DNA from: Agromyces cerinus
GTDB taxonomy: Bacteria > Actinomycetota > Actinomycetes > Actinomycetales > Microbacteriaceae
Reading direction: 5' to 3'
DNA: 64,000 nucleotides
NCBI RefSeq assembly: GCF_016907835.1
Contig: NZ_JAFBCT010000001.1
Coordinates: 558,001-622,000 of the forward strand
The notes beneath the pieces were generated by a model. It searched no databases. It had not been told where the DNA came from and saw only the letters and a list, made by a program, of their open reading frames with translations. Of the stretch, positions 9,801-57,097 are shown in pieces. The first letter of the stretch is position 1. Each line of letters opens with the position of its first letter. The translations under genes were made by a program, and so were the position numbers.

Positions 9801-10638
9801 TGCGCGTCACGGGCACGTTCGAACCCCACATCATGAGGTAGCTCGCGTTCCACCAGTCGGCCGACTCGGGCACGTCGGTCTGGTCGCCGAACACCTGCGG
9901 GCTCGCGACCGGGAGGTCGGCGTACCAGTCGTAGAACGACTGCATCGTGCCGCCGATGAGGTTCATGAATCGGGCGCCGACGCCGTGCGAGACCATCGAC
10001 ATCGCCGGGATCGGCGAGAAGCCGGCGACCCGGTCGGGGCCGTATGCCTTGATCGTGTGCACGTGCGCGGCGGCGACGATCTCGACCGCCTCCTCCCACG
10101 TCGCGCGCACCAGCCCGCCCTTGCCGCGCGCCCGCTTGTAGCGCGCCGAGGTCTCGGGATCGTCGGTGAGCTCGGCCCACGCGAGCACGGGGTCGCCGAG
10201 CCGGGCCTTCGCCTCGCGGTACATCGTGAGGAGGGTGCCCCTGATGTACGGGTACCGCACCCGCGTCGGCGAATACGTGTACCAGCTGAAGGCGGCGCCG
10301 CGGGGGCATCCGCGCGGTTCGTACTCGGGCGAGTCGGGGCCGACCGTCGGGTAGTCGGTCTGCTGGGTCTCCCAGGTGATGATGCCGTCCTTGACGTACA
10401 CCTTCCACGAACAGGAGCCCGTGCAGTTGACCCCGTGCGTCGACCGCACGACCTTGTCGTGCGACCACCGGTCGCGGTAGAAGACGTCGCCCTGGCGCCC
10501 GCCCTCGAGGAAGAGCGAGCGCATGTCCTCCGAGACCTCGCCGCGGCGCAGGAACCGGCCCATCTTCATGAGCGAGTCGGCGAGCGGCCCGTCGTTGGCC
10601 GGCTCGATGCGTTCGGCCGGTGTCTTCTCGATGGTCAT
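6883..10638 (-). CDS. narG: Respiratory nitrate reductase alpha subunit (molybdenum, FeS0)
   Basis: A 1251-residue catalytic subunit that reduces nitrate to nitrite on the cytoplasmic side using bis-MGD molybdenum cofactor. The FeS0 ligands are visible as H68, C72, C76 and C111, with exactly the spacing of E. coli NarG (His-4-Cys-4-Cys-35-Cys). The segment SFYDWYADLPVASP at about 234-247 contains the Asp that ligates molybdenum (D241 by offset, D237 as alternative). Typical NarG blocks follow, such as GMGAGTNHWFHSD-like and GGWAHYVGQEKVRPL. The ATG at 10638 is chosen over an upstream extension of 50 codons because GGGGAG precedes it and family similarity starts right after. First gene of narGHJI, 113 bp downstream of the regulator gene. 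Confidence 0.97.
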   Translation of the reverse strand: MTIEKTPAERIEPANDGPLADSLMKMGRFLRRGEVSEDMRSLFLEGGRQGDVFYRDRWSHDKVVRSTHGVNCTGSCSWKVYVKDGIITWETQQTDYPTVGPDSPEYEPRGCPRGAAFSWYTYSPTRVRYPYIRGTLLTMYREAKARLGDPVLAWAELTDDPETSARYKRARGKGGLVRATWEEAVEIVAAAHVHTIKAYGPDRVAGFSPIPAMSMVSHGVGARFMNLIGGTMQSFYDWYADLPVASPQVFGDQTDVPESADWWNASYLMMWGSNVPVTRTPDAHFMTEARYRGQKVITVSPDYADNTKFADEWLAPHPGTDGALAMAMGHVILKEFLVDRRTPRFESYLKQYADAPYLIALEERGDAWVPGKFLTASDLGGFGARVANAEFKTVLLNQQSEPIVPNGSLGHRFGADDEGHWNLDLGDVDPLLSVADGAVWKGASVAVDLPRFDIAPEVGAEHEGGAGSVRRGVPVAHVAGKTVTTVFDLLLAQYGVGREGLPGEWPTGYDDASSPGTPAWQEEITSVPAAKAERIGREFADNAERSGGRSMILMGAGTNHWFHSDTIYRTFLALTTMTGCQGVNGGGWAHYVGQEKVRPLTGYNQYSSAADWVRPARNMIGTAFWYLATDQWRYDGLPADQLASPLAKGLFEGRTTADCLVESAKRGWMPSYPTFDRNPLDLVDDAKAAGKEPAQYVIDSLADGSLHYAVEDPDAPENFPRVLNVWRANILGSSGKGNEYFLKHLLGTDAAVRAPEAEDDRRPRDMVWRDDAPIGKLDLLVTTDFRMTSTTLFSDIVFPAATWYEKHDLSSTDMHPFVHSFNPAIKPPWQTKTDFDIFHALAARMSEMAVQHLGVRHDLVAAPLMHDTPDAMATPHGTVRDDLPPVPGVTMPKLVVVERDYPALAAKLGSLGPLAAKLGMVTKGITFDPTPEVELLKASNGVVTSGPNIGAVRLDTDVRVCELILALSGTTNGRLAVQGFRQLEQRTGQELASLAVDHEGSRITFPDVQSRPVSVITSPEWSGSEHGGRRYSAFTVNVEHKKPWHTLTGRMHFFLDHDWMSELGENLPVYRPPLDLHRLYGDARVGSTEPTGAPGSAGHAEVAVRYLTPHSKWSIHSEYQDNLFMLSLSRGGPTIWMSPQDAAKIGVRDNEWIESYNRNGVVVARAIVSHRMPEGTVFMYHAKDRTVDVPRTETSGLRGGIHNSLTRVLLKPSHLIGGYAQLSFAFNYLGPTGNQRDEVTVIRRRSQEVEY

Positions 10639-42000: not shown

Positions 42001-42384
42001 TCAGCCCTGCGGGATCGCGGCGACGACGTCGATCTCGACGAGGATGTTCGCGAGGCGCGAGCCCACCGTGGTGCGAACGGGATAGGGCTCGGTGAAGAAC
42101 TCGGCGTAGGCGCCGTTGTACTCCGCGAAGTCCGCCAGGTCTTCGAGGTGGGCGGTGACCTTCACGACATCGTCGAACGACAGGTCGTACTCGGCGAGCA
42201 CGGCGCCGATGTTGCGCAGCACCTGGCGGGTCTGCTCGGTGGCGCCGCCCGGCACGACCTCGCCGGTGGCCGGGTCCTGCGGGCCGAACCCGGCGGTGTA
42301 GAGGAATCCGTTCGCGACGACGCCGTGGCTGTAGGGGCCTGCGGGCTTCGGGGCGTTCGAGAGGGTGACGGCGATCTTGGACAT
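42001..42384 (-). CDS. RidA-family enamine/imine deaminase
   Basis: A 127-residue RidA (YjgF) protein. It hydrolyses reactive 2-aminoacrylate-type enamines/imines released by PLP enzymes to ketoacids and ammonia. The key Arg is present in YPVRTTVGSRL (about residue 104), together with PAGPYSHGVVANG near the N-terminus and LVEIDVVAAI at the end, which carries the usual acidic residue. The ATG has a perfect AGGAGG. It ends a minus-strand unit: PLP enzyme, deacylase-like gene, IclR regulator, RidA. The fit with a dehydratase that makes an enamine is good. Confidence 0.9.
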   Translation of the reverse strand: MSKIAVTLSNAPKPAGPYSHGVVANGFLYTAGFGPQDPATGEVVPGGATEQTRQVLRNIGAVLAEYDLSFDDVVKVTAHLEDLADFAEYNGAYAEFFTEPYPVRTTVGSRLANILVEIDVVAAIPQG

Positions 42385-42434
42385 GGTTCCTCCTGTGCGA
42401 TGGCGGGTCGGTGGATGGGGAAGCGGTGGGAGCG

Positions 42435-43166
42435 TCAGCCGAGTTCTCGCGCGATGGCGTCGGCGGTCTCGCGCATCGCGGGCAGGTGCGCCCGCAACCG
42501 GTCGAGGTCGGCGACCATGCGGATCGCCGTGACCGAGAGCGCGCCGACGATGCCGAGCGAGCTGCGGATCGGCACGGCGATGCAGTTGACGAAGTCCTCG
42601 AACTCGCGGTCGTCGGCGGCCCAGCCGCGGGAGCGCACGAGGGCGAGCTCGCGGTCGAGGCGCTCGCGCGTGGTGATGGTCAGCTCGGTGTACCGCTCCC
42701 AGGTGACCCCGGCGAGCACCGCGTCGCGGCCCGCACGGTCGAGGTCGGCGAGGATCGCCTTGCCGACTGCCGAGCAGTTGGGGATGACCGCGCGGCCGAT
42801 GCGGGAGTACATGCGCACGCCCGACTCGTCTTCGGCCTTGTCGACGTAGACGATCGAGCGGTCCATGAGCGCTGCGAGGTGCACGGTGTTGCCGGTACGG
42901 CGCTGCAGCCGGCGCACGTGCTCGGCACCCGCCTCGCGCAGGTCGAGGGAGTCGAGCGCCTCCTTCGACAGGGCGGCGAGCCGGGTGCCGAGGGTGTAGC
43001 GGCCCGATGCGCGCCGGCGCACCCAACCGACCTCCTCGAGCGCCTGCAACTCCCGGAACATCGTCGACCGGTGCAGCTCGAAGGCCTCGGCGAGCTCGGC
43101 GACGGTGCGCGGGTCGGCCGCGATCGCGTCGATGATGCGGGCGGCGCGTTTCACGCTCTGCGACAT
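42435..43166 (-). CDS. IclR-family transcriptional regulator
   Basis: A 243-residue IclR regulator: winged helix at 1-65 (RTVAELAEAFELHRSTMFRE, then the wing RRRASGRYTLG), linker, and an effector domain about 80-243 with GRAVIPNCSAVGKAILA and CIAVPIRSSLGIVGALSV. IclR regulators respond to small organic acids and often control their catabolic genes. The ATG lies one base past the stop of the deacylase-like gene with GAGGAGG upstream, so it is translated with it. A long imperfect palindrome lies 34 bp upstream, inside the 3' end of that gene. Likely controls this gene group. Confidence 0.92.
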   Translation of the reverse strand: MSQSVKRAARIIDAIAADPRTVAELAEAFELHRSTMFRELQALEEVGWVRRRASGRYTLGTRLAALSKEALDSLDLREAGAEHVRRLQRRTGNTVHLAALMDRSIVYVDKAEDESGVRMYSRIGRAVIPNCSAVGKAILADLDRAGRDAVLAGVTWERYTELTITTRERLDRELALVRSRGWAADDREFEDFVNCIAVPIRSSLGIVGALSVTAIRMVADLDRLRAHLPAMRETADAIARELG

Positions 43167-43167
43167 G

Positions 43168-44867
43168 TCAGGCCTCCTCTTCTTCTGCTTCGATGCCTCG
43201 GGACCACTCGTGTACCACGGGACCAGGTATGTCGGCGGTCCGGTGCGACATGAGTGGTCCGGGACCGAGGGCGGCGGCACCAGGCGACCGACGGATGCCG
43301 CGGCCGGGCGTCGCTCCGGTGAGCGCGCCGCCCGCGAGCACGGGCACACCGGCGACGAGCACATCGTCGATGCCGACCGCGAGCCCGAGCGGCTCCCCGT
43401 AGCTCGCGGTCGCGCGCACGGCATCGGGGTCGACGAGCACGAGGTCGGCGATGCGGCCCTCGCGTACCGCGCCGCGGTCGCCGAGCCCGAACCGGGCCGC
43501 CGCGCGCGAGGAGACGAGCGCCGCGGCATCCGCCCAGCCGAGCGCGACCTGCTCGCGCACGAGCATCGAGAGGAACCGCGCGAACGAGCCGCGCGCCCGC
43601 GGGTGCGGGTGGCGGCCGATGAAGATGCCGTCGGAGCCGCCGATGGCCGCCGGGTGCGACAGGATCTCCGCGAGCCCGGTATCGCTGCGTTCGTGCTGCA
43701 CGGCCATCACGGCGCCGACCTCGAGCCGCGAGGCGACGAGCACGTCGAGGGCGAAGTCGATCGCGTCGATCGAGGTGCCCGAGCGAGCGGATGCCTCGGC
43801 AGCCCCCTGCGCGATCGTGAGGCCGTGCGCCCAGTCGTACTCGGGCGCCGCGACATGGGCGAGCGTGAGCATCGACGGCCACTCCGGGCCGAGGCTCGCG
43901 GAGCGCGTGATCGTCGGGAACCACTCCCGGCGGAGCCGGGCGCGCGCCGCGGGGTCGGCGAGCTCGGCGACGACGTCGGCGGTGGGCTGCACGGTGAGGG
44001 TGGCGGGCAGGATCGGCATCGCGAGGATCGAGCAGCCGCGCGTGTACGGGTAGGCGTCGAAGGTCGCGTCGACGCCGGCGAGGTCGAGCTCGGCGACGAG
44101 CTCCCGCACGAGGTGCGGCTCGGCGTGGAAGTGCGAGACGTGCACGCGCGCACCCGAGCTGCGTGCGATCGCGGCCACCTCGGCGATGCCCGCGGCGGAG
44201 TTCGCCTCGTAGCCGCCGCGCATGTGCGAGACGTAGACGGCTCCCACTTCGGCGACGGGTGCCGCGAGGGCGGCGAGTTCCTCGGTGTCGGCGAAGATGC
44301 CCGGCACGTAGTCGAGCCCGTCGAGAGCCCGAGGGCGCCGTCGGCGAGGCCCTCGGCCACGAGGGCACGCATGCGGGCGAGCTCGGCGGGTGATGCGGCA
44401 TCCGTCGACCGACCCGAGACCACGAATCGCACGGTGCCCGCTGGCACGAGCGTGCCGGCGTTCACCGCGGTGGCGCCGTCGTAGGCGGCGAGCAGGGCGG
44501 CGACCCCGCCGCCGCGATAGCCCGGGTGGCCGCCGTTGATCGCGGCGAAGTACTCGGTGGCGTAGGCGCCGTCGCCCGGGGCGTACGAGACCCCGTCCTG
44601 GCCGCCGATGACGGTCGTGACGCCCTGGCGCAGCAGGGCGAGCTGCACGTCGGAGTCGAACAGCGCGCCGTCGGCGTGCGAGTGCGCGTCGACGAAGCCG
44701 GGCATGAGCAGCCGGCCGCGGCCGTCGACGAGGTGAGCGTCGCCGGTGTCGACGGAGCCCGCCGGCGCGATGCGAGCGATGCGCTCGCCGTCGACGAGCA
44801 CATCGGATGCCTCGGCGCCGACGCCGTCGGCATCGACGACGATCACGTCTCGGATGAGGATCGACAC
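43168..44867 (-). pseudogene. N-acyl-D-amino-acid deacylase (D-aminoacylase) family, frameshifted
   Basis: Two frames together encode one amidohydrolase of about 566 residues. The N-terminal part (from GTG 44867, with AGGAG upstream) has the metal motif PGFVDAHSHAD. It runs to GALGLSTG, then the frame shifts by one missing base near 44316, and the family continues in the next frame with DYVPGIFADTEEL, VSHMRGGYEAN, VHVSHFHAEP and GGSDGIFIGRHPHPRARGS, i.e. the second metal and catalytic residues. The intact family reads STGLDYVPG at the junction, so one C in a GGC-TCG context is absent. Either the gene is newly inactivated or this is a sequencing error. The last 45 residues, over the palindrome, are not family-like. 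The family removes acyl groups from D-amino acids or from related 2-amino acids. Confidence 0.85.
43201..43260. promoter_or_regulatory. Imperfect 24-bp-arm palindrome upstream of the IclR gene
   Basis: Arms of 24 bp match at 20 positions around a 12-bp centre: the outer nine bases GGACCACTC and GAGTGGTCC are perfect, TGT/ACA and CAC/GTG pair further in, and the inner GGACC/GGTCC closes the stem. It lies 34 bp before the IclR start and within the unconserved end of the upstream gene. It may be an IclR operator, an mRNA hairpin separating the genes, or both. Confidence 0.65.
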
Positions 44868-44875
44868 CGGGGCTC

Positions 44876-46138
44876 CTAGAAGAACGTGCGCACGAGCGCG
44901 ACCACCCGGTCGGAACCGCCGCCCTCGACGACCGGGATGAGGCGCCACTTGTCGAACGCCGTGCACGGGTGCGAGAGGCCGAGCGACACGACCTCGCCGA
45001 TGGCGAGATCGAGCGGGCCGTCGGCGCGGAGGTACGCGTGCTGGTCGTTGAGCGCGGTCACGGATGCCCCGGCGAGCTGCCGCTCGACGGCACCGGGTGC
45101 CTCGGCGACGCCGAACGGCACGGGCAGGCCCTCGTCGTAGGGGAAGTCGCGCTTGCCGCCGTCGAGCAGCGCGAGGCCCGGCTCGGGGTGCGAGACGACG
45201 CGGGCGTAGCCGCGCATCGCGGGCGTGAGCTCGCCGTCGATCGGCGAGATGCCGTGGTAGAAGCCGTCGTCGTGCAGGAGCGAGGCGCCCGAGCGGAGGA
45301 TCCAGCGGGTGCCGGTGCCCTCCTCGGCGATCGCGGGCGCGAACACCTCGGCGACCAGTTCCAGGTACGCGCTGCCGCCGGCGGTGACGATGAGCTCGCC
45401 GTCGGCGAGGCCGCGTACGGCCGCGTGCACCGCGAGCATCTCGGCGAGGTAGCCGCGCACGGCGTCGAGCACCGCGGGGGAGCGATCGTGGCCGAGGCTG
45501 CCCTCGTAGCCGGCGGTGCCCGCGAGCCGCAGCACTGGCGACGCGGCGACGCGCTCGGCGATGCGCACGGCCTCGTCGACGCCGCGAGCGCCCGTGCGGC
45601 CGCCGGCCCCGCCGAGCTCGACGAGGACGTCGATCGGGCGGGGGAGTGCGAGACCTGCGAGGCCGTGCTCCATCGCCTCGACGGTCTCGACCGAGTCGAC
45701 CCACGAGCGGAACGCGAAGTCGGGGTCGGCGAGTTCGCCGGCGATGAACGCGAGCGCGGCCGGCGCGACGAGCGTGTTCGCGAGCATGATCGAGGCGATG
45801 CCGAACGAGCGCGCCGTACGCACCTGTCCGGGGGTCGCGAGGGTGAGCCCGGTGGCGCCGGCGTCGAGCTGGAGCTGCCAGAGGGCCGGGGCCATCGTGG
45901 TCTTGCCGTGCGGCATGAGTTCGAGACCGCGATCGTCGCACCAGCCCTGGATCACCGAGGCGTTGTGCGCGAGCGCCCGCTCGTCGAGCGCGAGCAGCGG
46001 GGTCCAGAACTCGGCGAGCGCCGGTTCGGTCGCGAGGAACTCGCGCACCGTGAGTCCGTCGGCGCGGGCGGGCAGGCCCTTGTCTGCTGCGCTCAGCCGA
46101 TCGTCGGCGAGCGCTGCGAGTCGCGTCTGCAGCGGCAT
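44876..46138 (-). CDS. D-threonine-aldolase/D-serine-dehydratase-like PLP enzyme (possible D-glucosaminate dehydratase)
   Basis: A 420-residue fold-type III PLP enzyme of the metal-dependent DSD/D-threonine aldolase group. The PLP Lys is in LMPHGKTTMAP (about residue 74), preceded by LLALDERALAHNASVIQ; the C-terminal SLGLSHPCTAFDKW has the His and Cys (HPC) that hold zinc in D-serine dehydratase. Members cleave D-threonine, deaminate D-serine or, as I recall from Pseudomonas work, dehydrate D-glucosaminate to 2-keto-3-deoxygluconate. The last activity fits the neighbouring kinase and KDPG aldolase best. It is the first gene of the minus-strand unit, with GAGAGGGG before the ATG, and ends eight bases before the deacylase-like gene. 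Confidence 0.87.
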   Translation of the reverse strand: MPLQTRLAALADDRLSAADKGLPARADGLTVREFLATEPALAEFWTPLLALDERALAHNASVIQGWCDDRGLELMPHGKTTMAPALWQLQLDAGATGLTLATPGQVRTARSFGIASIMLANTLVAPAALAFIAGELADPDFAFRSWVDSVETVEAMEHGLAGLALPRPIDVLVELGGAGGRTGARGVDEAVRIAERVAASPVLRLAGTAGYEGSLGHDRSPAVLDAVRGYLAEMLAVHAAVRGLADGELIVTAGGSAYLELVAEVFAPAIAEEGTGTRWILRSGASLLHDDGFYHGISPIDGELTPAMRGYARVVSHPEPGLALLDGGKRDFPYDEGLPVPFGVAEAPGAVERQLAGASVTALNDQHAYLRADGPLDLAIGEVVSLGLSHPCTAFDKWRLIPVVEGGGSDRVVALVRTFF

Positions 46139-46210
46139 CCGGAACCCCTCTCGTGTTGCAGATGTTGCAACGTGTTTGCACTGAATCTGCACACCAGACA
46201 GCATAGGGGC
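46139..46210. promoter_or_regulatory. Divergent promoter region with repeated TTGCA words
   Basis: This 72-bp gap separates the divergent PLP-enzyme and kinase genes. It holds GTTGCAGATG, TGTTGCAAC (with the palindrome GTTGCAAC), GTTTGCACTG and ATCTGCAC: four TGCA-centred words spaced roughly one helical turn apart at 46156-46190. It must contain promoters for both directions and is a likely site for the local IclR regulator; a binding site is inferred, not proven. Confidence 0.6.
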
Positions 46211-47134
46211 GTGCCTGACAATCCGCTGCCCGAAGTCGTCGCCCTCGGCGAGACCATGGCGCTCGTCGCCCCCGCGCTCGCCGAGCCGCTCGAGACCGCC
46301 GACGAGTTCCGCGTCGACTCCGCCGGTGCCGAGGCGAATGTCGCCGCCCACCTCGCGGCCCTCGGTCGTCGCGCCGCTTGGGCGGGGCGACTCGGCGACG
46401 ATGCCCTCGGCCGGCGCGTCGCGCGGCACCTGCGCGACCGAGGCGTCGACACCCGCTGGGTCGAGACCGACGACGAGGCGCCGACGGGTGTCTACTTCAA
46501 GGATCCGGGTCGCGGCGTGCGGTACTACCGAGCAGGGTCGGCGGCCTCGCGCATGACGCCGTCCTTCCTCGACGGGCTCCCGCTCGACTCGGCGCGGGTC
46601 GTGCACGTGAGCGGCATCACGCCGGCGCTGTCCGCGAGCTGCGACGACCTCGTCGACGCGCTCGTCGGCCGGATCGCCGACTCGCCCGCGCTGCTGAGCT
46701 TCGACGTGAACCACCGCAGCGCTCTCTGGCAGGCCGGGGTCGCGGCCGGTCGGCTGCGCGAGCTCGCCTCCCGCGCCGACCTCGTGTTCGTGGGGCTCGA
46801 CGAGGCCGAGGCGCTCTGGGGCACCGAGACCCCCGAAGCGGTGCGGGCACTGCTGCCCGAGCCGGCGCTCCTGATCGTGAAGGACGGTGCGATCGCGGCC
46901 ACGGAGTTCCGCGACGGTGCGGACTCCGCGCCGACCCGGGTGCCGGCGAGGTCCGTGGAGGTCGTCGAGGCCGTGGGTGCCGGTGACGCCTTCGCGGCGG
47001 GCTATCTCGCGTCGCTGCTCAACGGAGGCGACGCGAGCGAACGCCTCGCCGCCGGACATGCCCGAGCCGTCACCGTGCTCGGCGACACCGCCGACTTCCC
47101 CCGCGCCGAAACCACCACGAGGAGCACCCGATGA
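46211..47134 (+). CDS. PfkB-family kinase, probable 2-keto-3-deoxygluconate kinase
   Basis: A 307-residue ribokinase-fold sugar kinase. The start EVVALGETMALVAP is the pattern of 2-dehydro-3-deoxygluconokinases, an AGAEANVAAHLAALG motif follows, and the C-terminal VEAVGAGDAFAAGYL carries the catalytic Asp and anion hole. It should phosphorylate 2-keto-3-deoxygluconate to KDPG with ATP. Its stop overlaps the KDPG aldolase gene by ATGA, which supports this substrate strongly. The GTG start is preceded by a modest AGGGGC. It is transcribed divergently from the PLP enzyme. Confidence 0.9.
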   Translation: MPDNPLPEVVALGETMALVAPALAEPLETADEFRVDSAGAEANVAAHLAALGRRAAWAGRLGDDALGRRVARHLRDRGVDTRWVETDDEAPTGVYFKDPGRGVRYYRAGSAASRMTPSFLDGLPLDSARVVHVSGITPALSASCDDLVDALVGRIADSPALLSFDVNHRSALWQAGVAAGRLRELASRADLVFVGLDEAEALWGTETPEAVRALLPEPALLIVKDGAIAATEFRDGADSAPTRVPARSVEVVEAVGAGDAFAAGYLASLLNGGDASERLAAGHARAVTVLGDTADFPRAETTTRSTR

Positions 47135-47742
47135 CCACCATCAGCAACGCCGAGTTCGACGAGATCTTCGAGGGGAAGCCGCTCATGGCGATCTTCCGGG
47201 GCATGGGCGTCGAGCGGAGCCTCGAGCTCGCCGAGCGGGCATGGGGCCTCGGAATCGACGTGGTCGAGCTGCCGATCCAGACCGAGGCCGACCTCGAGGC
47301 GCTGCGCGTCGTCGCGGCGGCGGGGCGGGCCGCCGGTCGCCTCGTGGGAGCGGGCACCGTCGTGTCGGTGCGGCATGTCGAGCTCGCGGCATCCGCCGGC
47401 GCGGCCTTCACCGTGAGTCCCGGCTTCGATCCCGTCGTCTCGCGCGCCTCGGCGCAGGCCGGATTGCCGCCGATGCCGGGCGTCGCGACCGCGACCGAGG
47501 TGCAGGCCGCGATGGCTTCGGGCCTCACCTGGTTGAAGGCGTTCCCGGCGTCGCTCCTCGGCCCGGCGTGGTTCCCGGCGATGGCCGGCCCGTTCCCCGC
47601 CGCCCGCTTCGTCGCCACCGGCGGCATGGACGCCTCGAACGCGGGGGAGTTCCTTGCGCGAGGCGTGCGCGCGGTCGCCGTCGGGACGGCGCTCGAGGAC
47701 CCGACGCAGTTGCCGGCCCTCGCCGCCCTGCTCGCCGAGTAG
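47131..47742 (+). CDS. eda: KDPG (2-keto-3-deoxy-6-phosphogluconate/KHG) aldolase
   Basis: A 203-residue class I aldolase of the KDPG/KHG family. LMAIFRGMGVERSLEL matches the usual PVIRG start, DVVELPIQTEADLEAL carries the Glu, GTVVSVRHVELAASAGAAF the next strand, and the Schiff-base Lys is in TWLKAFPAS (about residue 133), followed by FVATGGMDASN. It splits KDPG to pyruvate and glyceraldehyde 3-phosphate. Translation is coupled to the kinase. A strong hairpin ends the unit 22 bp later. Confidence 0.93.
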   Translation: MTTISNAEFDEIFEGKPLMAIFRGMGVERSLELAERAWGLGIDVVELPIQTEADLEALRVVAAAGRAAGRLVGAGTVVSVRHVELAASAGAAFTVSPGFDPVVSRASAQAGLPPMPGVATATEVQAAMASGLTWLKAFPASLLGPAWFPAMAGPFPAARFVATGGMDASNAGEFLARGVRAVAVGTALEDPTQLPALAALLAE

Positions 47743-47880: not shown

Positions 47881-47970
47881 GGTCGCTTCCAGTACGCGTG
47901 AGCACCGAGATCCTGCACGCGGCGAACTGCACCACCTTCCACGCAACGAAGCACGAGAGGAATGCCGGAG

Positions 47971-49635
47971 ATGACTCGAACCAAACGCTCCTTCGCGGTG
48001 GCACTCGCCGCCGGAGCGGCCGCGATCGCCCTGGGAATGACCGGATGCACCCCGTCGGCAGGAGGGGGCGGCGACGACGCCTCTGTCCTCCGCGTCTGGG
48101 CGGGCAGCGCCACCCCGATCAACAACAACTTCAACCCGTTCGCCGTCGACACGGCCGTGCACGCGACGTTCGGCGTGATCTACGAGCCGCTGTTCTTCTT
48201 CAACCAGCTCTCGGCCGATGCGCCCGTCGGGCTCATCGGCGACAGCTACGAGTACAGCGAAGACGGCCGCACGCTCACCGTCACGATCAAGCCCGACCTC
48301 AAGTGGAGCGACGGCGACGACCTCACCGCCGACGATGTCGCCTTCACCTTCGGGTACGGCTCGAACAAGTCCGAGCAGTTCGTCTCGGCCGAGGCGACCG
48401 ACGCCACCACCGTCGTGGTCACCTACACCGAACCGCAGTTCACGAGCGCCTCGCTCACGCTCGGTTCGACGTACATCATCCCCGAGCACATCTGGGCCGA
48501 CATCGACGACTTCATGGCCGAGACGAACCCCGAGCCCGTCGGCTCCGGCCCGTACGTGCTGAAGAGCTTCTCCGATGCGGCCTACACGGTCGAGGCGAAC
48601 GAGCTCTTCCGCGACGGCGCGCCCGCCGTGACCGAGGTGCAGTACCTCGGCCTCGACTCGAACCAGTCGTCGCAAGACCTCCTGACGACCGGCAAGATCG
48701 ACTGGGTCGGCCAGTTCATCGCGAACCCCGACGCCGTCACCGGCGAGGGGAACATCACGACGCTGAACCTCCAGCAGGACCCGACGACGATCACGACCTG
48801 CGCGAACGCCGATCTCGGGTGCGAGGGTGCGCAGACCGACCCGGCCGTGCGCCAGGCGATCGACGTCGCGATCGACCGCGCAACGATCGCCGACAAGGCC
48901 TTCGCCGGACTCGCGGGCGAGTCCTCGCCGTCGTTCACCCTCCAGCCGCGCGATGAGCAGTGGCTGAGCGACCCCGAGCTCGCGACGAGCCCGCAGGCGG
49001 CGAACGCGGCAGAGGCGGGCGCGATCCTCGAGGCCGCCGGCTACACGAAGGATGCCGACGGGTTCTACGGCACGGGCGGCACGGCCTTCGAGATCGACCT
49101 GTTCTCGCCCGACGGCTGGACCGACTACAACGACGCGGCCAAGCTCATCTCCGAGCAGGCCGCCGATGCGGGCATCCGCATCAACGCCCGCACCGTCTCC
49201 GACGCCGAGTACTGGACGCCGATCCAGTCGGGCGACTTCCAGATGGCGCTCTACGGCCTCACGCAGAGCCTCGTCGCCGACCCGTACTCGAACTACCACG
49301 AGTACTTCGCCGGCACCTCGACCGCGAAGGTCGGCGAGACCCCGCTCGTCGGCCAGAACTACGCGCGCTACTCGAACCCGGTCGTCGACGGGGCCGTGCT
49401 CGCGGCCGGCGCGACGCAGGACGTCGCGACGAAGCAGGCGGCCTACGCGACCATCCAGGCCGAGATCGCACGCGACCTCCCGTACATCCCGGTGGTGCTG
49501 AACGCCTCGCAGTCGTTCTTCAACACCGAGAAGTTCAGCGGATGGCCGAGCGAGGGCGACCTGTACGCCGCGCCGCTGCCGTACCTGGCGGTGGCCAACG
49601 CGGTCGTGCTCTCGCACCTCACCCCGGCGAAGTAG
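47971..49635 (+). CDS. ABC transporter substrate-binding lipoprotein (family 5, Opp/Dpp type)
   Basis: A 554-residue extracellular binding protein anchored by lipid: basic n-region MTRTKRSF, hydrophobic core and lipobox GMTGC with Cys at about residue 25, then a Gly-rich tether. The mature protein follows family-5 order: PINNNFNPFAVDTAV, VIYEPLFFFNQ, TVTIKPDLKWSDGDDLTADDV (in pieces), GSGPYVLKSF and a long C-terminal lobe. Family 5 binds peptides, nickel or, in several clades, oligosaccharides such as cello- and xylo-oligomers. The downstream glycosidase and kinase point to a sugar. ATG 47971 is chosen for AGAGGA nine bases upstream; ATG 47962 overlaps that site. Confidence 0.92.
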   Translation: MTRTKRSFAVALAAGAAAIALGMTGCTPSAGGGGDDASVLRVWAGSATPINNNFNPFAVDTAVHATFGVIYEPLFFFNQLSADAPVGLIGDSYEYSEDGRTLTVTIKPDLKWSDGDDLTADDVAFTFGYGSNKSEQFVSAEATDATTVVVTYTEPQFTSASLTLGSTYIIPEHIWADIDDFMAETNPEPVGSGPYVLKSFSDAAYTVEANELFRDGAPAVTEVQYLGLDSNQSSQDLLTTGKIDWVGQFIANPDAVTGEGNITTLNLQQDPTTITTCANADLGCEGAQTDPAVRQAIDVAIDRATIADKAFAGLAGESSPSFTLQPRDEQWLSDPELATSPQAANAAEAGAILEAAGYTKDADGFYGTGGTAFEIDLFSPDGWTDYNDAAKLISEQAADAGIRINARTVSDAEYWTPIQSGDFQMALYGLTQSLVADPYSNYHEYFAGTSTAKVGETPLVGQNYARYSNPVVDGAVLAAGATQDVATKQAAYATIQAEIARDLPYIPVVLNASQSFFNTEKFSGWPSEGDLYAAPLPYLAVANAVVLSHLTPAK

Positions 49636-49685
49636 GCCGCCGGTCCCATGGAACGAACCCTTCCGAACTCGAGGACGGCAGTGGC

Positions 49686-50690
49686 ATGAGCTTCTACCTT
49701 CGGCGGGTCGCCTTCTACCTGGTGACCCTCTGGGCGGCGATCTCGCTCAACTTCCTGCTCCCGCGGCTCCTGCCGGGCGACCCCGCCGCCATCATGCTCG
49801 GCAAACTCCGGCGCGCCAGCGGCGGGCGCCCGCTCTCCGAGGAGACGATCGAGGCGATCACCTCGATCCTCGGCGCCGGGAAGGACATGTCCCTCTGGGA
49901 CCAGTACGTGGCGTACTGGGGCCGGCTGCTTCAGGGAGACCTCGGCGTCTCCTCCACGAGGTATCCGGCCTCGGTCGCCGATCTCATCGCGGCGGCCCTG
50001 CCGTGGACGATCATCCTGGTCGGTGTCGCGACCGTCATCTCCTTCCTGCTCGGCATCATCGTCGGCGCATGGGTGGGGTGGCGGCGCGGCACCGCGCTCG
50101 ACCACCTGGTGCCGGTCACCACGGTCTTCCAGTCCATCCCGTACTTCTGGCTCGCCCTCGTGCTCGTCGCGGTGTTCTCGGTGCAGCTGGGCTGGTTCCC
50201 GATCGTCGGCGGGTACGACGTCTTCGAGTTCCCGGCCGGCCCCGAGCCCACCTGGGCGTTCGTCGGCAGCGCGATCTACCACGCCATCCTCCCGGCGACC
50301 ACGATCGTGCTCTCGTCGGTCGGCGGCTGGCTCCTCGGCATGCGCAACATGATGGTGTCGACGATGTCGGAGGACTACGTCGTCACCGCCGAGGCGAAGG
50401 GGCTCACGCCGCGCCGGGTGCGCACGAGGTACGCCTCGCGCAACGCCGCCATCCCGAGCCTCGCCGGGTTCGGCATCGCCCTCGGCTTCGTCGTCGCCGG
50501 CTCCATCGTCATGGAGCAGGTGTTCAGCTACCCGGGCATCGGCAAGCTCATGATCCAGGCGGTGCAGGGCCTCGACTACGCGCTCATGCAGGGCGTCTTC
50601 CTCGTGATCACGCTCACCGTGCTGGCCGCCAACTTCTTCATGGACCTCATCTACGGCTTCATCGACCCGAGGGTGCGACACAATGGATGA
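49686..50690 (+). CDS. ABC transporter permease (OppB/DppB type)
   Basis: A 334-residue inner-membrane permease with six helices. The first helix FYLVTLWAAISLNFLLPRLLPGDPA is the DppB pattern, and the EAA loop DYVVTAEAKGLTPRRVRTRYASRNA (in pieces) lies at about 235-260, where it docks the ATPase. FSYPGIGKLMIQAV near residue 280 is also typical. It pairs with the next gene to form the channel. It starts 50 bp after the binding-protein gene with GAGGA upstream and overlaps the next gene by eight bases. Confidence 0.93.
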   Translation: MSFYLRRVAFYLVTLWAAISLNFLLPRLLPGDPAAIMLGKLRRASGGRPLSEETIEAITSILGAGKDMSLWDQYVAYWGRLLQGDLGVSSTRYPASVADLIAAALPWTIILVGVATVISFLLGIIVGAWVGWRRGTALDHLVPVTTVFQSIPYFWLALVLVAVFSVQLGWFPIVGGYDVFEFPAGPEPTWAFVGSAIYHAILPATTIVLSSVGGWLLGMRNMMVSTMSEDYVVTAEAKGLTPRRVRTRYASRNAAIPSLAGFGIALGFVVAGSIVMEQVFSYPGIGKLMIQAVQGLDYALMQGVFLVITLTVLAANFFMDLIYGFIDPRVRHNG

Positions 50691-51770
50691 CTCCCAGCCC
50701 ACCCTCGATCGCGCCGACGACGCCTACGCCACCGGCGACGACGCGCCGTTCCAGTCGCCCGTCTCCGCCGAGGCGGTGCGCGAGACGACCCGCGAGGCGA
50801 CCGCCACCGCCGCGGTCGCGGCAGCACGTGCGACGCGCGGCGGCCGGTTCCGGCACATCCTGCCGAGCCGCTCCGGCAAGCTCATCACCGGCGTCGTGAT
50901 CGTCGGCCTCATCACACTGTTCGGCATCTTCGGCCCGATGATCGCCCAGCCGCCCCGCGACTCGAGCAACGAGGCCCTGCAGCCGCCGTCGGCCGAGCAC
51001 TGGCTCGGCACGACCAAGCTCGGCTACGACGTGTTCTCGCAGCTCGCCTGGGGCACGCAGGGCTCGCTCTTCATCGGCCTCGTCGCCGGCCTCGTCGCCC
51101 TCTTCCTCGCCGTCGTCTTCGGCGTGTTCGCCGGCTACTTCGGCGGCGTGCTCGACGAGGTGCTCACGCTCTTCACGAACATCGTGCTCGTCATCCCCGG
51201 CCTGCCCGTCGTCATGGTGATCGCCGCCTACGTGCAGACCGCCGAGGGCCTCGGGCCGCTGGCCCGAAGCTCCCTCCTCGTCGCACTCGTGCTCGGCATC
51301 ACGGGCTGGGCGGGCTCCGCCGTGGTGCTGCGAGCCCAGGCGCGCTCACTGCGCACCCGCGAGTACGTCGCCGCGGCCCGTGTCGCGGGCGAGAAGCCCG
51401 GGCGCATCATCTTCGTCGAGATCCTGCCGAACCTCGTGCCGCTGCTCGCGGCCCAGTTCATCTTCGGCGTCATCTTCGCGGTGCTCGGCGAGGCCGGCCT
51501 CTCGTACCTCGGCCTCGGGCCGACCGGGTCGATCACCCTCGGCACGATGCTGAACGACGCCCAGACGGGGCAGGCCGTCGGCACCGGCGCCTGGTGGTGG
51601 TTCGTGCCCCCTGGCCTCATCATCGCCGCGCTCGGCGCCGGACTCTCCCTCATCAACTTCGCGATCGACGAGGTCGTGAACCCGAAGCTCAGGCTCGCGC
51701 CTGAGAACGCGAAGCGCCAGCGCCGGGCCGCGAAGGCAGGCAAGGGCGTCGCCGACGCCGGAGCATTCGC

Positions 51771-51774
<4 letters not shown>
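50683..51774 (+). CDS. ABC transporter permease (OppC/DppC type)
   Basis: A 363-residue permease with a long cytoplasmic N-terminus (about 65 residues, Ala/Thr/Glu-rich, not conserved) followed by six helices. HWLGTTKLGYDVFSQLAWGTQGSL is the DppC hallmark (seen in pieces), and the EAA loop TREYVAAARVAGEKPGRI lies near 225-240. GEAGLSYLGLGPTGSITLG follows. It forms the second half of the membrane channel. ATGA overlap leads into the ATPase gene. Confidence 0.93.
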
Positions 51775-52654
<880 letters not shown>

Positions 52655-52658
<4 letters not shown>

Positions 52659-53497
52659 GCGGGCAGGCGACGGCGATGGCGACCCTCGAGGCGCGCAACC
52701 TGGTGAAGGACTTCCGGCTGCGCAGCGGCACCAAGGTGCGCACGCTCCATGCGGTGAAGGATGTCTCGTTCACCCTCGAGCCGGGTCGCACGATCGCCCT
52801 CGTGGGCGAGAGCGGCTCGGGCAAGTCGACGATCGCACGCATGATGGCCAAGCTCGAGACGCCGACGTCGGGCGAGGTGCTGCTCGACGGGCGCACGAGC
52901 GCGACCCGCGGCGGCGGGCTCGCCCGGTACCGGCGCGACGTGCAGATGGTCTTCCAGGACCCGTTCAGCTCGCTGAACCCGTTCCACCCGATCCTGCACC
53001 ACCTGGAGCGGCCGCTGCGCATCCACAACCCGCGGCTCTCGTCGCGGCAGATCCGCGAGCGCGCCGAGGAGCTGCTCGAGCGCGTGCGCCTCTCGCCGGC
53101 GGCGAGCTTCGCCGATCGTCGGCCGCACGAGCTCTCGGGCGGTCAGCGGCAGCGCGTCGCGATCGCCCGTGCGCTCGCCCCCGGGTCGCGGTTCATCATC
53201 GCCGACGAGCCGGTGTCGATGCTCGACGTGTCGATCCGCCTCGGCGTGCTGAACCTGCTCGCCGAGCTGCAGCGGCAGGAGCACCTCGGCGTGCTCTACA
53301 TCACGCACGACCTCGCGACCGCGCGGCACTTCTCCGACGAGATCCTGGTGATGTACCGCGGGGAGATCGTCGAGCGCGGGCCGAGCGAGCAGGTGATCCT
53401 CGATCCGCAGCACGAGTACACGAAGACGCTGCTCGAGGCCGCCGCCGACCCGGATCGACTCGGGCGACTGCGCGACGATGTGCGGAACGGCGGGTGA
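52655..53497 (+). CDS. ABC transporter ATP-binding protein (OppF type)
   Basis: A 280-residue partner ATPase. Walker A GESGSGKST at about 51-59, Q-loop VFQDPFSSLNPFHP, signature HELSGGQRQRVAIARAL, Walker B FIIADEPVSMLD and switch His in YITHDL are intact. The C-terminal HEYTKTLLEAA is the shortened OppF end. With the previous gene it should form the heterodimer that powers uptake. The ROK regulator follows 69 bp later. Confidence 0.93.
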
Positions 53498-53566
53498 GGC
53501 GCCAATCAGTAAAGATTCCTTGCAGATAGAGTGACCACGAACACGAAACGAGAGAGGCGGACTGCC

Positions 53567-54724
53567 GTGAACCAGATCGACCCGGGCACCCCCACGTGGC
53601 TCGCGGCGCGCAACGACCGCACCGCCTTCCGACTCCTGCTCGAACACGGTCCGCTCACCCGGTCGCGACTCGGCGAGCTCACCGGGCTCTCGAAGCCCAC
53701 CGCATCGCAGATGCTGGCCCGCCTCGAGCGGGTCGGCCTGATCCGGCCGGTCGGCGAGCGGTCGGGCGGCCGGGGGCCGAACGCGATCACCTACGGAGTG
53801 CGCACCGATCGCATCACGGGCGTCGCGATCTCGATCCTCGACCGTGCCATCCAGGCGGTCGTGGTCGATGCCGTCGACCACGACCACCCGATCGTGCAGA
53901 TCGCGACCGATGGGCACGAGCGTTCCCCTGAGGACGATGTGCGCGCCGCTGTTCGGGCGGCCTGCGCCGAGGCCGGCATCGACGAGAGCACCGTCAGCCG
54001 CGTCGTGATCGGCGTGCAGGCCGCGTTCTTCGTCGACGGCGACGAGCTCTCGTTCACCGACACCCTGCCCGGGTGGCCCGAGATCGGATCGCGGGCCCGC
54101 ATCGAGCAGGAGCTCGGCCTCCAGGTGACGATCGACAACGACGTCAACCTCGCGACGATGGCGGAGCGCTCGTCGGGCGCGGCGCAGCAGGCGGCGAGCT
54201 TCGCCCTGTTCTGGATCGGCGACGGTCTCGGCGTCGGCCTCGACCTCGGCGGGGTCGTGCACCGCGGCGCCTCGGGCGGGGCGGGCGAGATCGGCTACCT
54301 CGCGGTGCCGCGGACGGCGGCTCCGCTCGCCCCCGCGGCGAACGACTTCACCGACCTGCTCGGCGGGCCGGCCGTCGCCCGCCTCATCGGCGGCGGCGAC
54401 GACGAGACGCTCGCCGAGGTGCTGCCCCGACTCGCCGCCGACGACGACGCCCTGTCGGCCCTCGCCGACCGCGTGATCCTCGCCGTCAACCCGCTGCTGG
54501 CGATCCTCGATCCCTCGATGATCGTGCTCGGCGGGCCCACGGGCACCGCCGGCGGTGCCCGCCTCGCCGAGCTCGTCGCCGAGCGCGTCGACCCGGCGGC
54601 GCACCCGAAGCTCGCGATGCGCACGAGCGGCACCGGCGCCCAGCCGGTGCTCCTCGGCGCGCGCCAGCAGCTCGTCGAGCAGATCCGCGACCACCTCGAG
54701 GCGGACATCTCGCTCGCCACCTGA
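53567..54724 (+). CDS. ROK-family transcriptional regulator lacking the zinc cysteines
   Basis: A 385-residue ROK regulator. The winged helix is at about 18-75 (RLLLEHGPLTRSRLGELTGLSKPTAS, in pieces) and the sugar-kinase-like domain starts near 80; DNDVNLATMAE with its Asp-Asn-Asp and FWIGDGLGVGLDLGG, then GASGGAGEIGYLA are clear. The usual CxCGxxGC zinc motif that follows HRG..GEIGH in ROK proteins is absent; there is no Cys there and Tyr replaces the metal-binding His. It may sense a sugar and control the ABC operon. GTG 53567 follows GAGAGAGG; GTG 53531 would add 12 residues. Confidence 0.88.
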   Translation: MNQIDPGTPTWLAARNDRTAFRLLLEHGPLTRSRLGELTGLSKPTASQMLARLERVGLIRPVGERSGGRGPNAITYGVRTDRITGVAISILDRAIQAVVVDAVDHDHPIVQIATDGHERSPEDDVRAAVRAACAEAGIDESTVSRVVIGVQAAFFVDGDELSFTDTLPGWPEIGSRARIEQELGLQVTIDNDVNLATMAERSSGAAQQAASFALFWIGDGLGVGLDLGGVVHRGASGGAGEIGYLAVPRTAAPLAPAANDFTDLLGGPAVARLIGGGDDETLAEVLPRLAADDDALSALADRVILAVNPLLAILDPSMIVLGGPTGTAGGARLAELVAERVDPAAHPKLAMRTSGTGAQPVLLGARQQLVEQIRDHLEADISLAT

Positions 54725-54738
54725 CTCGGCCGCAGAGA

Positions 54739-54760
54739 GCGGATGCCACGGGGCATCCGC
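54739..54760 (+). terminator. GGATGCC-type hairpin after the ROK gene
   Basis: GCGGATGCC and GGCATCCGC form a 9-bp stem with an ACGG loop, 14 bp after the ROK stop. No T run follows, so it may attenuate rather than stop transcription into the GH4 gene. Confidence 0.5.
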
Positions 54761-54827
54761 CGCCCGGCCACCGACCCTTCGCTCCGCGCTCGTGCGCGGG
54801 GCGCACCACGCACGGAATTGAGGACTG

Positions 54828-56087
54828 ATGAAGCTCGCCATCGTCGGCGGAGGCTCGACCTACACGCCCGAACTCATCGACGGGTTCGCACGTCTGCGCG
54901 ACACGCTGCCGCTCGAGGAGATCCGCCTCGTCGACCCCGATGAGCACCGTCTCGCGCTCGTCGCTGGCATGTCGCAGCGCATGCTCGAGCACGCCGGGCA
55001 CCCCGCGAAGGTGGTCGGCACGACCGACCTCGTCGCCGGTGTCGCCGATGCCGATGCCGTGCTCATCCAGTTGCGGGTCGGCGGGCAGGACGCCCGTCAC
55101 GCCGACGAGACCTGGCCGCACGAGGTCGGATGCATCGGCCAGGAGACGACCGGGCCCGGCGGCCTCGCGAAGGCGCTGCGCACCGTGCCCGTGGTGCTGC
55201 GCATCGCCGACGTCGTGCGGGCGCATGCGAAGCCCGACGCCTGGATCGTCGACTTCACGAACCCCGTCGGCATCGTCACGCGTGCCCTGCTCGAGGCGGG
55301 CCACCGCGCCGTCGGCCTCTGCAACGTCGCGATCGGCTTCCAGCGCCGCTTCGCCTCGCTCTTCGACGTCGACCACGACCGGGTGAGCCTCGGCCATGTC
55401 GGCCTCAACCACCTGACGTGGGAGCGGAGCGTCGTCATCGACGGCGCCGACCGGCTGCCCGGGCTGCTCGAGCACCGACTCGGCGTACTCGCCGAAGAGG
55501 TGCACCTGGCGCCCGCGCTCATCGCACAACTCGGCGTCGTGCCCTCGTACTACCTGCGCTACTACTACGCGCACGACGAGGTGCTGCGCGAGCAGCTCCA
55601 CGAGCCCACGCGGGCCGAGGCGGTGCGCGCGATCGAGCGCGAGCTGCTCGAGATCTACGCCGACCCGACCCAGCACGAGAAGCCCGCGGCACTCGAGGGG
55701 CGCGGCGGCGCCTTCTACTCCGAGGCGGCGATCGAGCTGCTCGCGGCGATGCGCGACGGCGCGAGCCGCTCGCGGGTGGTCAACCTGCGCAACGACGGCG
55801 TGCTGCCGTTCCTGCCCGACGACCACGTCATCGAGGTGCCGGCGGTGTTCCGCGACGGGGGATTCGTCGCAGAACCGGTCGCGCCGCTGCCCGACGACAT
55901 CCGCGGCCTCATCGCCGGTGTCGCCGGCTATGAGCGCCTCGCGCTCGACGCAGCGGTGCACGGCGGTCGCGACCGCGTGCTCCGTGCGATGCGCGCGCAC
56001 CCGCTCGTGCTGCAGCATGACCGGGCCGAGCAGCTCACCGACCTGCTCATGGCCGAGAACGCCCCGTTCCTGGAGTGGGCTCGATGA
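54828..56087 (+). CDS. GH4 glycosidase, probable 6-phospho-beta-glucosidase
   Basis: A 419-residue family-4 glycosidase, which works by NAD-dependent oxidation-elimination and needs a divalent metal. GGGSTYTPEL at 7-16 binds NAD; C165 in VGLCNVAIG and H195 in VGLNHLTWE are the metal ligands; PSYYLRYYY at 239-247 holds the catalytic Tyr and is of the 6-phospho-beta-glucosidase type (CelF, BglT). The enzyme acts on the phosphorylated sugar in the cytoplasm. No PTS gene is nearby; the adjacent BadF-type kinase could provide the phosphate. It overlaps that kinase gene by ATGA. Confidence 0.92.
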   Translation: MKLAIVGGGSTYTPELIDGFARLRDTLPLEEIRLVDPDEHRLALVAGMSQRMLEHAGHPAKVVGTTDLVAGVADADAVLIQLRVGGQDARHADETWPHEVGCIGQETTGPGGLAKALRTVPVVLRIADVVRAHAKPDAWIVDFTNPVGIVTRALLEAGHRAVGLCNVAIGFQRRFASLFDVDHDRVSLGHVGLNHLTWERSVVIDGADRLPGLLEHRLGVLAEEVHLAPALIAQLGVVPSYYLRYYYAHDEVLREQLHEPTRAEAVRAIERELLEIYADPTQHEKPAALEGRGGAFYSEAAIELLAAMRDGASRSRVVNLRNDGVLPFLPDDHVIEVPAVFRDGGFVAEPVAPLPDDIRGLIAGVAGYERLALDAAVHGGRDRVLRAMRAHPLVLQHDRAEQLTDLLMAENAPFLEWAR

Positions 56088-57097
56088 GCGGCGTGATCGT
56101 CGCCGTCGACGGCGGCGGCTCGAAGACCGACGCCGTCGCGCTCACGATCGACGGCGAGCTCGTCGCCCATGAACGCGGCGCCGGCTCGAGCCCGCACTTC
56201 GAAGGGCTCGGCGAGGCGGTCGCCGTCGTCGACGAACTCGTGCGCGCCGTGGCGGGGGAACTGCCCGTCGCCCACGCGGGGCTCTACGTCTCGGGCCTCG
56301 ACCTGCCCGTCGAGGTCGACCAGTACTCCGCCGCGATCGCGGGCTTCACGTGGGCGGGGTCGTCGACCGTCGTCGCCAACGACCTCTACGCCGTGCTTCG
56401 CGCGGGCACCGACGAACCCGACGCCGTGGCGATCGTCTGCGGCACGGGCGTGAATGCGGTCGGTGTGCGCGCCGACGGCGCCGACGTGCGCTTCCCCTCG
56501 CTCGGCGCCCTCTCCGGCGACTGGGGCGGCGGCAGCGGCATCGGCGAGCAGGTGCTGTGGCACGCCGCGAGGGACGTCGACGGCCGGGGGCCGCACACGG
56601 CGCTCACCGCGGCGATCGTCGAGCAGCTCGGCGTCGAGTCGGTGCCCGCCCTCATCGAGGACCTGCACTTCGGCCGGCGCGACTCGAGCGAGCTGACCGC
56701 GCTCGCGCCCGCGGTCTTCGGCGCCGCACGAGCGGGCGATGCAGTGGCGGCGGGACTCGTCGATCGTCAGGCCGAGGAGATCGTGGCGTTCGCCCGCGCC
56801 TGCGTGACGCGACTCGGGCTCGCCGATCGTGCCGTTCCGATCGTGCTCGGCGGCGGCATCCTGCGTTCGGGCGACGAACGTCTCATCGGCGGCATCACCT
56901 CGGGTCTGGCCGCCGTGGCTCCACGGGCCCGCATCGAGATCCTCGATGCGTCGCCGATCGTCGGAGCCGCGCTGCTCGCGCTCGATCGGGTGGGCGCGAC
57001 CGCCGAGGCGCTCGACCGGGCGCGCGACGCGGTCACGCGGGCGACGCGGATGACGCAGGCCGCTGTCGAGCGCGAGGCGGCGCCCGTCGCGCGCTGA
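56084..57097 (+). CDS. BadF/BadG-type sugar kinase (N-acetylglucosamine-kinase-like)
   Basis: A 337-residue ASKHA-fold kinase. VAVDGGGSKTDAVAL at 6-20 is the phosphate-1 loop of the BadF/BadG/BcrA/BcrD group, AIVCGTGVNAVGV the second phosphate site, and GDWGGGSGIGEQVLWHAARDVDGRG follows (in pieces) with the GG pattern of GlcNAc kinases. VIVLGGGILRSGDERL-like adenosine motif (PIVLGGGILRSG) is near 250. Known members phosphorylate GlcNAc, MurNAc or glucosamine. Directly coupled to a GH4 gene, it may phosphorylate the imported disaccharide or the released aminosugar. Last gene of the transport operon. Confidence 0.9.
   Translation: MSGVIVAVDGGGSKTDAVALTIDGELVAHERGAGSSPHFEGLGEAVAVVDELVRAVAGELPVAHAGLYVSGLDLPVEVDQYSAAIAGFTWAGSSTVVANDLYAVLRAGTDEPDAVAIVCGTGVNAVGVRADGADVRFPSLGALSGDWGGGSGIGEQVLWHAARDVDGRGPHTALTAAIVEQLGVESVPALIEDLHFGRRDSSELTALAPAVFGAARAGDAVAAGLVDRQAEEIVAFARACVTRLGLADRAVPIVLGGGILRSGDERLIGGITSGLAAVAPRARIEILDASPIVGAALLALDRVGATAEALDRARDAVTRATRMTQAAVEREAAPVAR

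Follow-up and report, generated by a model that had tools for sequence, protein, structure and literature searches.

A six-gene set of Agromyces cerinus and other actinomycetes as a candidate pathway for N-acylated amino sugar acids

We analyzed six genes of the actinomycete Agromyces cerinus that lie in two divergent arms within a 64,000-nt stretch of its genome (hereafter the window: positions 558,001 to 622,000 of contig NZ_JAFBCT010000001.1, assembly GCF_016907835.1; the genome is 3.98 Mb in one contig, and coordinates are those of the window). The genes probably form one conserved unit that breaks down an N-acylated amino sugar acid by a route leading to 2-keto-3-deoxy-6-phosphogluconate (KDPG). 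The first candidate for this acid is N-acetyl-D-glucosaminate (GlcNAc1A), in which the end of chitin is oxidised at C1. The evidence consists of gene content, conservation in actinomycetes, a palindrome between the two arms, phylogeny and, in one genus, an association with chitinase.

Gene content and proposed pathway

The sequence-only reading had already placed these six genes, and their families and positions are borne out by Pfam, NCBIfam and structure matches (see the table); the gap that it described between the arms is exactly 72 bp long. On the minus strand the order from downstream to upstream is RidA, IclR regulator, deacylase and pyridoxal phosphate (PLP) enzyme, while on the plus strand the kinase and aldolase genes overlap by 4 bp. 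The kinase belongs to the PfkB sequence family of 2-keto-3-deoxygluconate (KDG) kinases, and no NCBIfam equivalog cut-off is reached.

From this content we infer every reaction of the route, as well as the substrate and the regulator's site and ligand. Together the six genes would serve to break down a 2-(acylamino)-2-deoxy-aldonic acid. The amidohydrolase would take off the acyl group, and the PLP enzyme would convert D-glucosaminate (GlcN1A) to KDG with loss of water and ammonia, RidA clearing the enamine/imine. The kinase would then turn KDG into KDPG, which the aldolase would split into pyruvate and glyceraldehyde 3-phosphate. The IclR protein would control both divergent operons through a single palindrome between them, in the 72-bp gap.

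Features of the A. cerinus cluster (window coordinates).
Feature	Position	Strand	Evidence
RidA/Rid-family gene, OngD counterpart by family	42001..42384	-	PF01042 115.8 bits; TIGR00004 110.8 bits (cut-off 106.25)
IclR-family regulator, KdgR-like	42435..43166	-	PF09339 and PF01614; best NCBIfam model KdgR 144.6 bits, under cut-off 275
D-aminoacylase-like amidohydrolase (deacylase) gene	43168..44867	-	Frame break at about 44316-44324, two frames
Fold-III PLP enzyme, putative D-glucosaminate-type dehydratase	44876..46138	-	PF01168 and PF14031; motifs MPHGKTTM, SHPC
Divergent promoter gap, 72 bp	46139..46210	.	Between minus and plus arms
Palindrome GTTGCAGATGTTGCAAC, putative IclR operator	46155..46171	.	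Inside the 72-bp gap
PfkB-family kinase, putative KDG kinase	46211..47134	+	PF00294; 4DU5 (PfkB) 141 bits, KDG kinase 1V19 129 bits
KDPG/KHG aldolase-family gene	47131..47742	+	PF01081 114.7 bits (cut-off 27.8); KDPG aldolase structures, e.g. 1WA3, 113 bits
Opp-type ABC transporter genes, candidate importer	47962..53497	+	No operator match; candidate link to the cluster

Conservation across actinomycetes and the shared palindrome

Named genomes were scanned with the PLP protein and the best 80 of at least 580 relatives were kept, all from actinomycetes; gene presence was scored by tblastn (E≤1e-6) within the fetched stretches, some of which are short. Conservation of the six-gene neighborhood, which the sequence-only reading had put forward as a check, was found in many actinomycetes: 41 of the 80 loci contain all six genes, 54 contain both kdgK and kdgA, and 60 contain the deacylase. 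The complete sets belong to Agromyces, Humibacter, Cryobacterium, Arthrobacter, Lacisediminihabitans, Mycobacterium/Mycolicibacterium, Kitasatospora, Rhodococcus, Nocardia, Pseudonocardia and Psychromicrobium. The genes are arranged in two main orders, with variants. In order 1 (Agromyces and several other Micrococcales), kdgA-kdgK lies opposite PLP-deacylase-IclR-RidA; in order 2 (Mycobacteriales, Kitasatospora, Pseudonocardia, Psychromicrobium), RidA-IclR-kdgK lies opposite PLP-deacylase-kdgA. A Tsukamurella plasmid with order 2 is annotated as RidA, IclR, sugar kinase, 'alanine racemase', 'D-aminoacylase', KDPG aldolase and gluconate:H+ symporter. Around the PLP gene of 30 Agromyces loci, the deacylase was present within 1.5 kb in 29 and the kinase in 26.

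Transporter genes adjoin many of these sets. A GntP-type permease was found in 19/80 loci (Pfam-checked in locus L074), and among the genes listed for the 22 loci whose neighbors were inspected, an MFS permease, a sugar ABC transporter or a betaine-type ABC transporter occurred according to lineage. Judged by their families, the GntP-type permease, the sugar ABC transporter and the Tsukamurella symporter would fit sugar acids or amino sugars.

The 72-bp gap contains GTTGCAACATCTGCAAC, read in the PLP direction. The pattern GTTGCA-N5-TGCAAC was searched in the 260 bp that precede the PLP gene, a match being at least 10 of 12 positions. It precedes the PLP gene in 47 of the 53 loci with an IclR gene, a count that is not independent as these loci also served to derive the pattern, and in 3 of the 27 loci without one; random 282-bp stretches matched in 83 of 4000 cases. 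Because of this derivation, the contrast between loci with and without the regulator is the better evidence. GTTGCRNNNNNYGCAAC occurs just once in the A. cerinus genome, in the gap. The palindrome is thus a likely IclR operator, and these data are the best evidence that both arms form one regulon and that both gene orders share the regulator.

In three Cryobacterium loci (L052, L060, L061), kdgA-kdgK-PLP stands about 5 kb from deacylase-IclR-RidA. The space between the arms of L052 holds a sugar ABC transporter, and genes for a NamZ muramidase, a SIS-domain protein and an RpiR-like protein (by eye) adjoin. A palindrome match at 9373 in L052 is followed by the sugar ABC genes at 9414 and a further match precedes the IclR gene; L060 and L061 match at the same places.

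The same genes could also be read as plain D-amino-acid catabolism, in which an N-acyl-D-amino acid deacylase, a D-serine/D-threonine deaminase and RidA would have sugar genes as chance neighbors. Indeed, the genes for the nearest non-actinobacterial relatives of the PLP enzyme in the tree (Pantoea, Klebsiella variicola) have RidA, IclR and an amino-acid ABC importer as neighbors, and the annotation of the 15 kb fetched shows neither a sugar kinase nor a KDPG aldolase. However, kdgK and kdgA accompany the PLP gene in more than one gene order, the palindrome sits between the two divergent arms, and we know of no use for a KDG kinase and a KDPG aldolase in plain D-amino-acid breakdown. Co-expression in Mycobacterium smegmatis points the same way: in the available text of a zinc-regulator study (PMC7174638), expression of the D-aminoacylase gene MSMEG_3787, of eda (MSMEG_3788) and of the YgbN permease gene (MSMEG_3789) drops jointly, by 4- to 5.6-fold, when zur is mutated, and the authors write of an Entner-Doudoroff cluster; MSMEG_3785 appears as a PfkB kinase in another table. 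With a GntP-like permease beside the kinase, D-aminoacylase and eda genes, this set has type-2 content by annotation; it is known only from expression changes. We therefore consider D-amino-acid catabolism very unlikely. According to the parts of two other papers that were available, MSMEG_3787 was detected in the wild type only (PII study, PMC11001197), and MSMEG_3785 of dormant M. smegmatis was put under purine biosynthesis (PMC6131537), at odds with a sugar-acid kinase.

Relation to the ong cluster and to chitinase

The chemistry proposed here has a proven core in the ong cluster of Pseudoalteromonas prydzensis ACAM 620. In the available text of the ong report (Jiang et al. 2022, PMC9537276), OngB deacetylates GlcNAc1A, the fold-III PLP enzyme OngC converts GlcN1A to KDG and ammonia, KdgK phosphorylates KDG, and OngD is a RidA protein; single ong deletions abolish growth on GlcNAc1A, except those of ongOT-1 and ongR. 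The clusters of Vibrio, Klebsiella and Serratia additionally contain kdgA, the aldolase step being the authors' hypothesis, and the complete pathway was reported from Gammaproteobacteria and one Achromobacter (PMC9537276). Because OngC also deaminates D-serine and D-threonine (PMC9537276), a point in favor of D-amino-acid catabolism, activity of the actinobacterial PLP enzyme on these amino acids would speak less strongly against a sugar-acid pathway. Elsewhere, the available part of a paper on haloarchaeal chitin use predicts a D-glucosaminate route via another enzyme (PMC12343721).

The A. cerinus set resembles ong in its D-aminoacylase-fold deacylase, fold-III PLP enzyme, RidA, KDG kinase and presence of a regulator, in the order of the reactions, and in having kdgA in the cluster, as in Vibrio, Klebsiella and Serratia. 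The regulator is of the IclR family here, whereas OngR is MurR/RpiR, and no SSS transporter, hexosaminidase or TonB receptor was noticed among the open reading frames listed at 39.0-58.5 kb, most of them named by eye. Orthology with ong was rejected, as the trees place both the PLP enzyme and the deacylase in other branches. Thus the cluster is not a member of ong, although by analogy it probably works like it. The deduction made in the sequence-only reading was right in kind, because its core chemistry is proven in ong. The set would have been assembled in actinomycetes separately from the gammaproteobacterial cluster.

The PLP enzyme had been described as a zinc/PLP D-threonine-aldolase-like protein. 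Its fold type was confirmed, but its closeness to D-threonine aldolases was not: structure 3GWQ, named D-serine deaminase, scores 205 bits and D-threonine aldolases 81 and 74 bits. Moreover, the enzyme reads His-Pro-Cys where 4V15 reads His-Val-Asp, so that the name D-threonine aldolase was rejected. We take the His-x-Asp or His-Pro-Cys pair to be metal-binding. The enzyme shares SHPC...FDKW with 3GWQ, but differs from it in having sugar-acid genes as genomic partners.

A PLP tree of 51 sequences (39 from among the 80 named loci and 12 others; midpoint root, read for topology only) unites the actinobacterial proteins of both gene orders in one group beside Pantoea and Klebsiella variicola, outside the OngC clade; the proteins in the OngC position of Pseudoalteromonas and Vibrio lie in other parts of the tree. 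The HDDGFY motif fails to separate loci with and without the kdg genes, as both are missing from 14 of the 71 loci that have its second Asp. On a Novosphingobium capsulatum plasmid (L130, 2954-7984), RidA and a related PLP enzyme stand with a gluconolactonase, an SDR dehydrogenase and an aldolase/citrate-lyase-family gene. That set is possibly a route by which the amino sugar is converted to its acid.

The deacylase tree (59 sequences, displayed pruned to 22) joins type-1 and type-2 cluster deacylases (0.999). OngB-position proteins lie outside this group, as do three further proteins with Asp for the ligand Cys. These three are D-aminoacylases of Haloprofundus, Cetobacterium and Rhodovastum (L121-L123). 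The gene of Haloprofundus adjoins a membrane dipeptidase and an ABC importer, and that of Rhodovastum a diaminopropionate ammonia-lyase.

The chitinase association was assessed in 60 Agromyces genomes by following the PLP gene, not the whole set. The gene was counted in 34 genomes, leaving out G041, which has only a 40% identical match. A chitinase of glycoside hydrolase family 18 (GH18) is present in 29 of these 34 genomes and in 1 of the 26 PLP-negative genomes (Fisher 1.2e-10). On a lysC-asd tree, built from two genes that adjoin the cluster in A. cerinus and rooted at the midpoint, a model of correlated change of PLP and GH18 beats independence (likelihood ratio 31.0, p=3e-6; p-values are chi-square approximations). 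No phylogeny-aware association was found in Agromyces for GH10 (p=0.30) or GH32 (p=0.12; counted in 33/36 genomes, three with weak matches only being left out). The A. cerinus genome itself has one GH18 protein, with the motif DGIDVDWE.

Whether these actinomycetes have a separate route for oxidised chitin ends, with an Asp/His/His deacylase metal site, a rebuilt carboxylate anchor and one conserved IclR operator, spread from Microbacteriaceae to Nocardia and Kitasatospora, is to our judgment evenly balanced. Oxidised chitin use has so far been described as nearly confined to Gammaproteobacteria, mostly marine; an actinomycete version, if true, would extend it to soil, give a basis for renaming genes now annotated alanine racemase and D-aminoacylase, and be a second case of D-amino-acid enzymes turned to sugar acids. 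We found no report of the route in actinomycetes in the open-licence literature, judged from titles and abstract openings and, for long result lists, from part of the entries.

Counter-evidence, alternatives and neighboring genes

Several observations weigh against the proposed unit or against GlcNAc1A as its substrate. The first concerns gene content. In seven of the 80 loci, kdgK, kdgA and PLP occur but the deacylase does not, two of these loci ending just past the PLP gene; another seven contain PLP and the deacylase but neither kdg gene. A further 11 show none of kdgK, kdgA and the deacylase within what was fetched, and several of these stretches are short. Three Microbacterium loci (L047, L049, L053) combine kdgA-kdgK with PLP-IclR; no deacylase was found in them and betaine-type ABC genes lie nearby (Pfam-checked in L053). 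From their gene content, these three may use a free zwitterionic amino sugar acid.

The second is the state of the deacylase in A. cerinus itself. The sequence-only reading was right about the family of this gene, but had missed its frame break. Its N and C parts lie in two frames, and deacylation is interrupted in this genome as assembled; the logic of the deduced route stands, as in ong, but not its completeness here. It may be that the strain now uses only amino sugar acid in free form; alternatively, the break may come from a sequencing error. In the closest relative within the genus, G014, the gene is one open frame of 551 aa. Ratios of nonsynonymous to synonymous substitution (dN/dS) against G014 are 0.29 and 0.29 for the two deacylase halves, 0.24 for KdgK, 0.03 for RidA and 0.06 for IclR, and both halves still look constrained. 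Since the G014 gene is intact and both halves give 0.29, the break is either recent or a read error.

Such a break would also be expected if the set were a decaying remnant that no longer works in this strain. In the stretch fetched from the sister strain Agromyces sp. Root81 (L036, G045; 6083-10410), the PLP gene is the sole survivor of the six, between an ABC binding protein and asd. The Root81 genome has no GH18, and G026, of the same subclade, lacks both the PLP gene and GH18. As the deacylase is broken in the A. cerinus assembly and Root81 keeps the PLP gene only, with no GH18, loss of the set may be under way in the subclade. For the A. cerinus strain, decay is rather doubtful, given that the deacylase halves are about as constrained as KdgK, that RidA and IclR have very low ratios, and that the one base concerned may have been misread even though the genome is finished.

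The third point is the active site of the deacylase. The orthologue of A. fucosus (L059) matches the structures 9G5M, D-aminoacylase, BbDam and PpOngB in two stretches. In the available text on PpOngB (PMC12017989), Lys254 binds the substrate carboxylate and Ser292 is a mark of OngB. We checked these residues in 52 deacylases, 8 of the 60 from the named loci being left out for want of the start motif. Both His ligands, Tyr194 and Tyr285 are retained in 52/52, and Asp368, the catalytic residue, and Arg379 in 51/52 (one gap each). On the other hand, the ligand Cys is absent, being replaced by Asp in 51/52, so that the Cys/His/His site of OngB is lost, and Lys254 occurs in 0/52: position 254 is His in 25/25 type-1 sequences, and Thr in 26 and Cys in 1 of the 27 of type 2. 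Ser292 is found in 12/25 type-1 and 0/27 type-2 deacylases. Position 226 is Tyr in 52/52, an assignment that is tentative since type 1 aligns there only with a gap of one residue, and an extra insertion beside loop 2 makes the position of PpOngB Gln298 unalignable. These alignments, together with the fold expected by homology, indicate that fold and catalytic residues are retained and that the carboxylate site is changed. Because two active-site residues of the proven deacetylase are gone, sequence does not decide whether GlcNAc1A is the deacylase substrate, and the substrate named in the sequence-only reading stays a candidate.

These changes would suit another N-acylated 2-amino aldonic acid, such as N-acetyl-galactosaminate, leading to 2-keto-3-deoxygalactonate (KDGal), or a substrate with another acyl group, the chemistry being otherwise right. 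Both cluster types lack Lys254 and the Cys ligand, while the three Asp-type relatives outside such clusters retain Lys254, and the two best NCBIfam models for the kinase are bifunctional KDG/KDGal kinases, both under cut-off. Nevertheless, the aldolase scores higher with the KDPG model TIGR01182 (139.3 bits, cut-off 156) than with the aldolase model for the phosphorylated KDGal product, KDPGal (111 bits, also under cut-off), and the set is associated with GH18 chitinase in Agromyces. Thus another substrate is unlikely, and GlcNAc1A stays the first candidate.

The fourth point concerns chitin. The A. cerinus genome has no AA10 lytic polysaccharide monooxygenase (LPMO; PF03067), another difference from ong, and the family occurs in 8 of the 60 Agromyces genomes. 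With none in its own genome and few in the genus, the source of GlcNAc1A is unexplained. The eight genomes are among the 34 PLP-positive ones, against 0/26 PLP-negative (Fisher p=0.008; phylogeny-aware p=0.052). In a second genus of the family, probably Microbacterium (295 genomes, best 6 candidates per genome scored), 34 PLP orthologues were counted at a preset split of 480 bits, and GH18 occurred in 6/34 against 24/261 genomes (p=0.13, not significant). Taking all 48 PLP matches gave 13/48 against 17/247 (p=0.0002 without phylogeny), a signal driven by a 52-56% identical group (7/14), perhaps paralogues. The chitin link is thus strong in Agromyces and not general on present evidence. Phylum-wide, the PLP gene (E≤1e-95) was present in at least 8 of 396 genomes, with the best 4 candidates per genome considered, and an LPMO in 15/396; a link between the two was not supported, as the three genomes with both all belong to genus g8, the source of 11 of the 15 LPMO genomes.

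After the cluster, the window contains, at 47962-57097, an Opp-type ABC transporter, a ROK regulator, a GH4 glycosidase and a BadF/NagK-like kinase. No palindrome match ties this block to the IclR regulator. By its gene families it looks like a system for amino-sugar oligosaccharide uptake, and its binding protein adjoins the six-gene set in five of nine named Agromyces loci.

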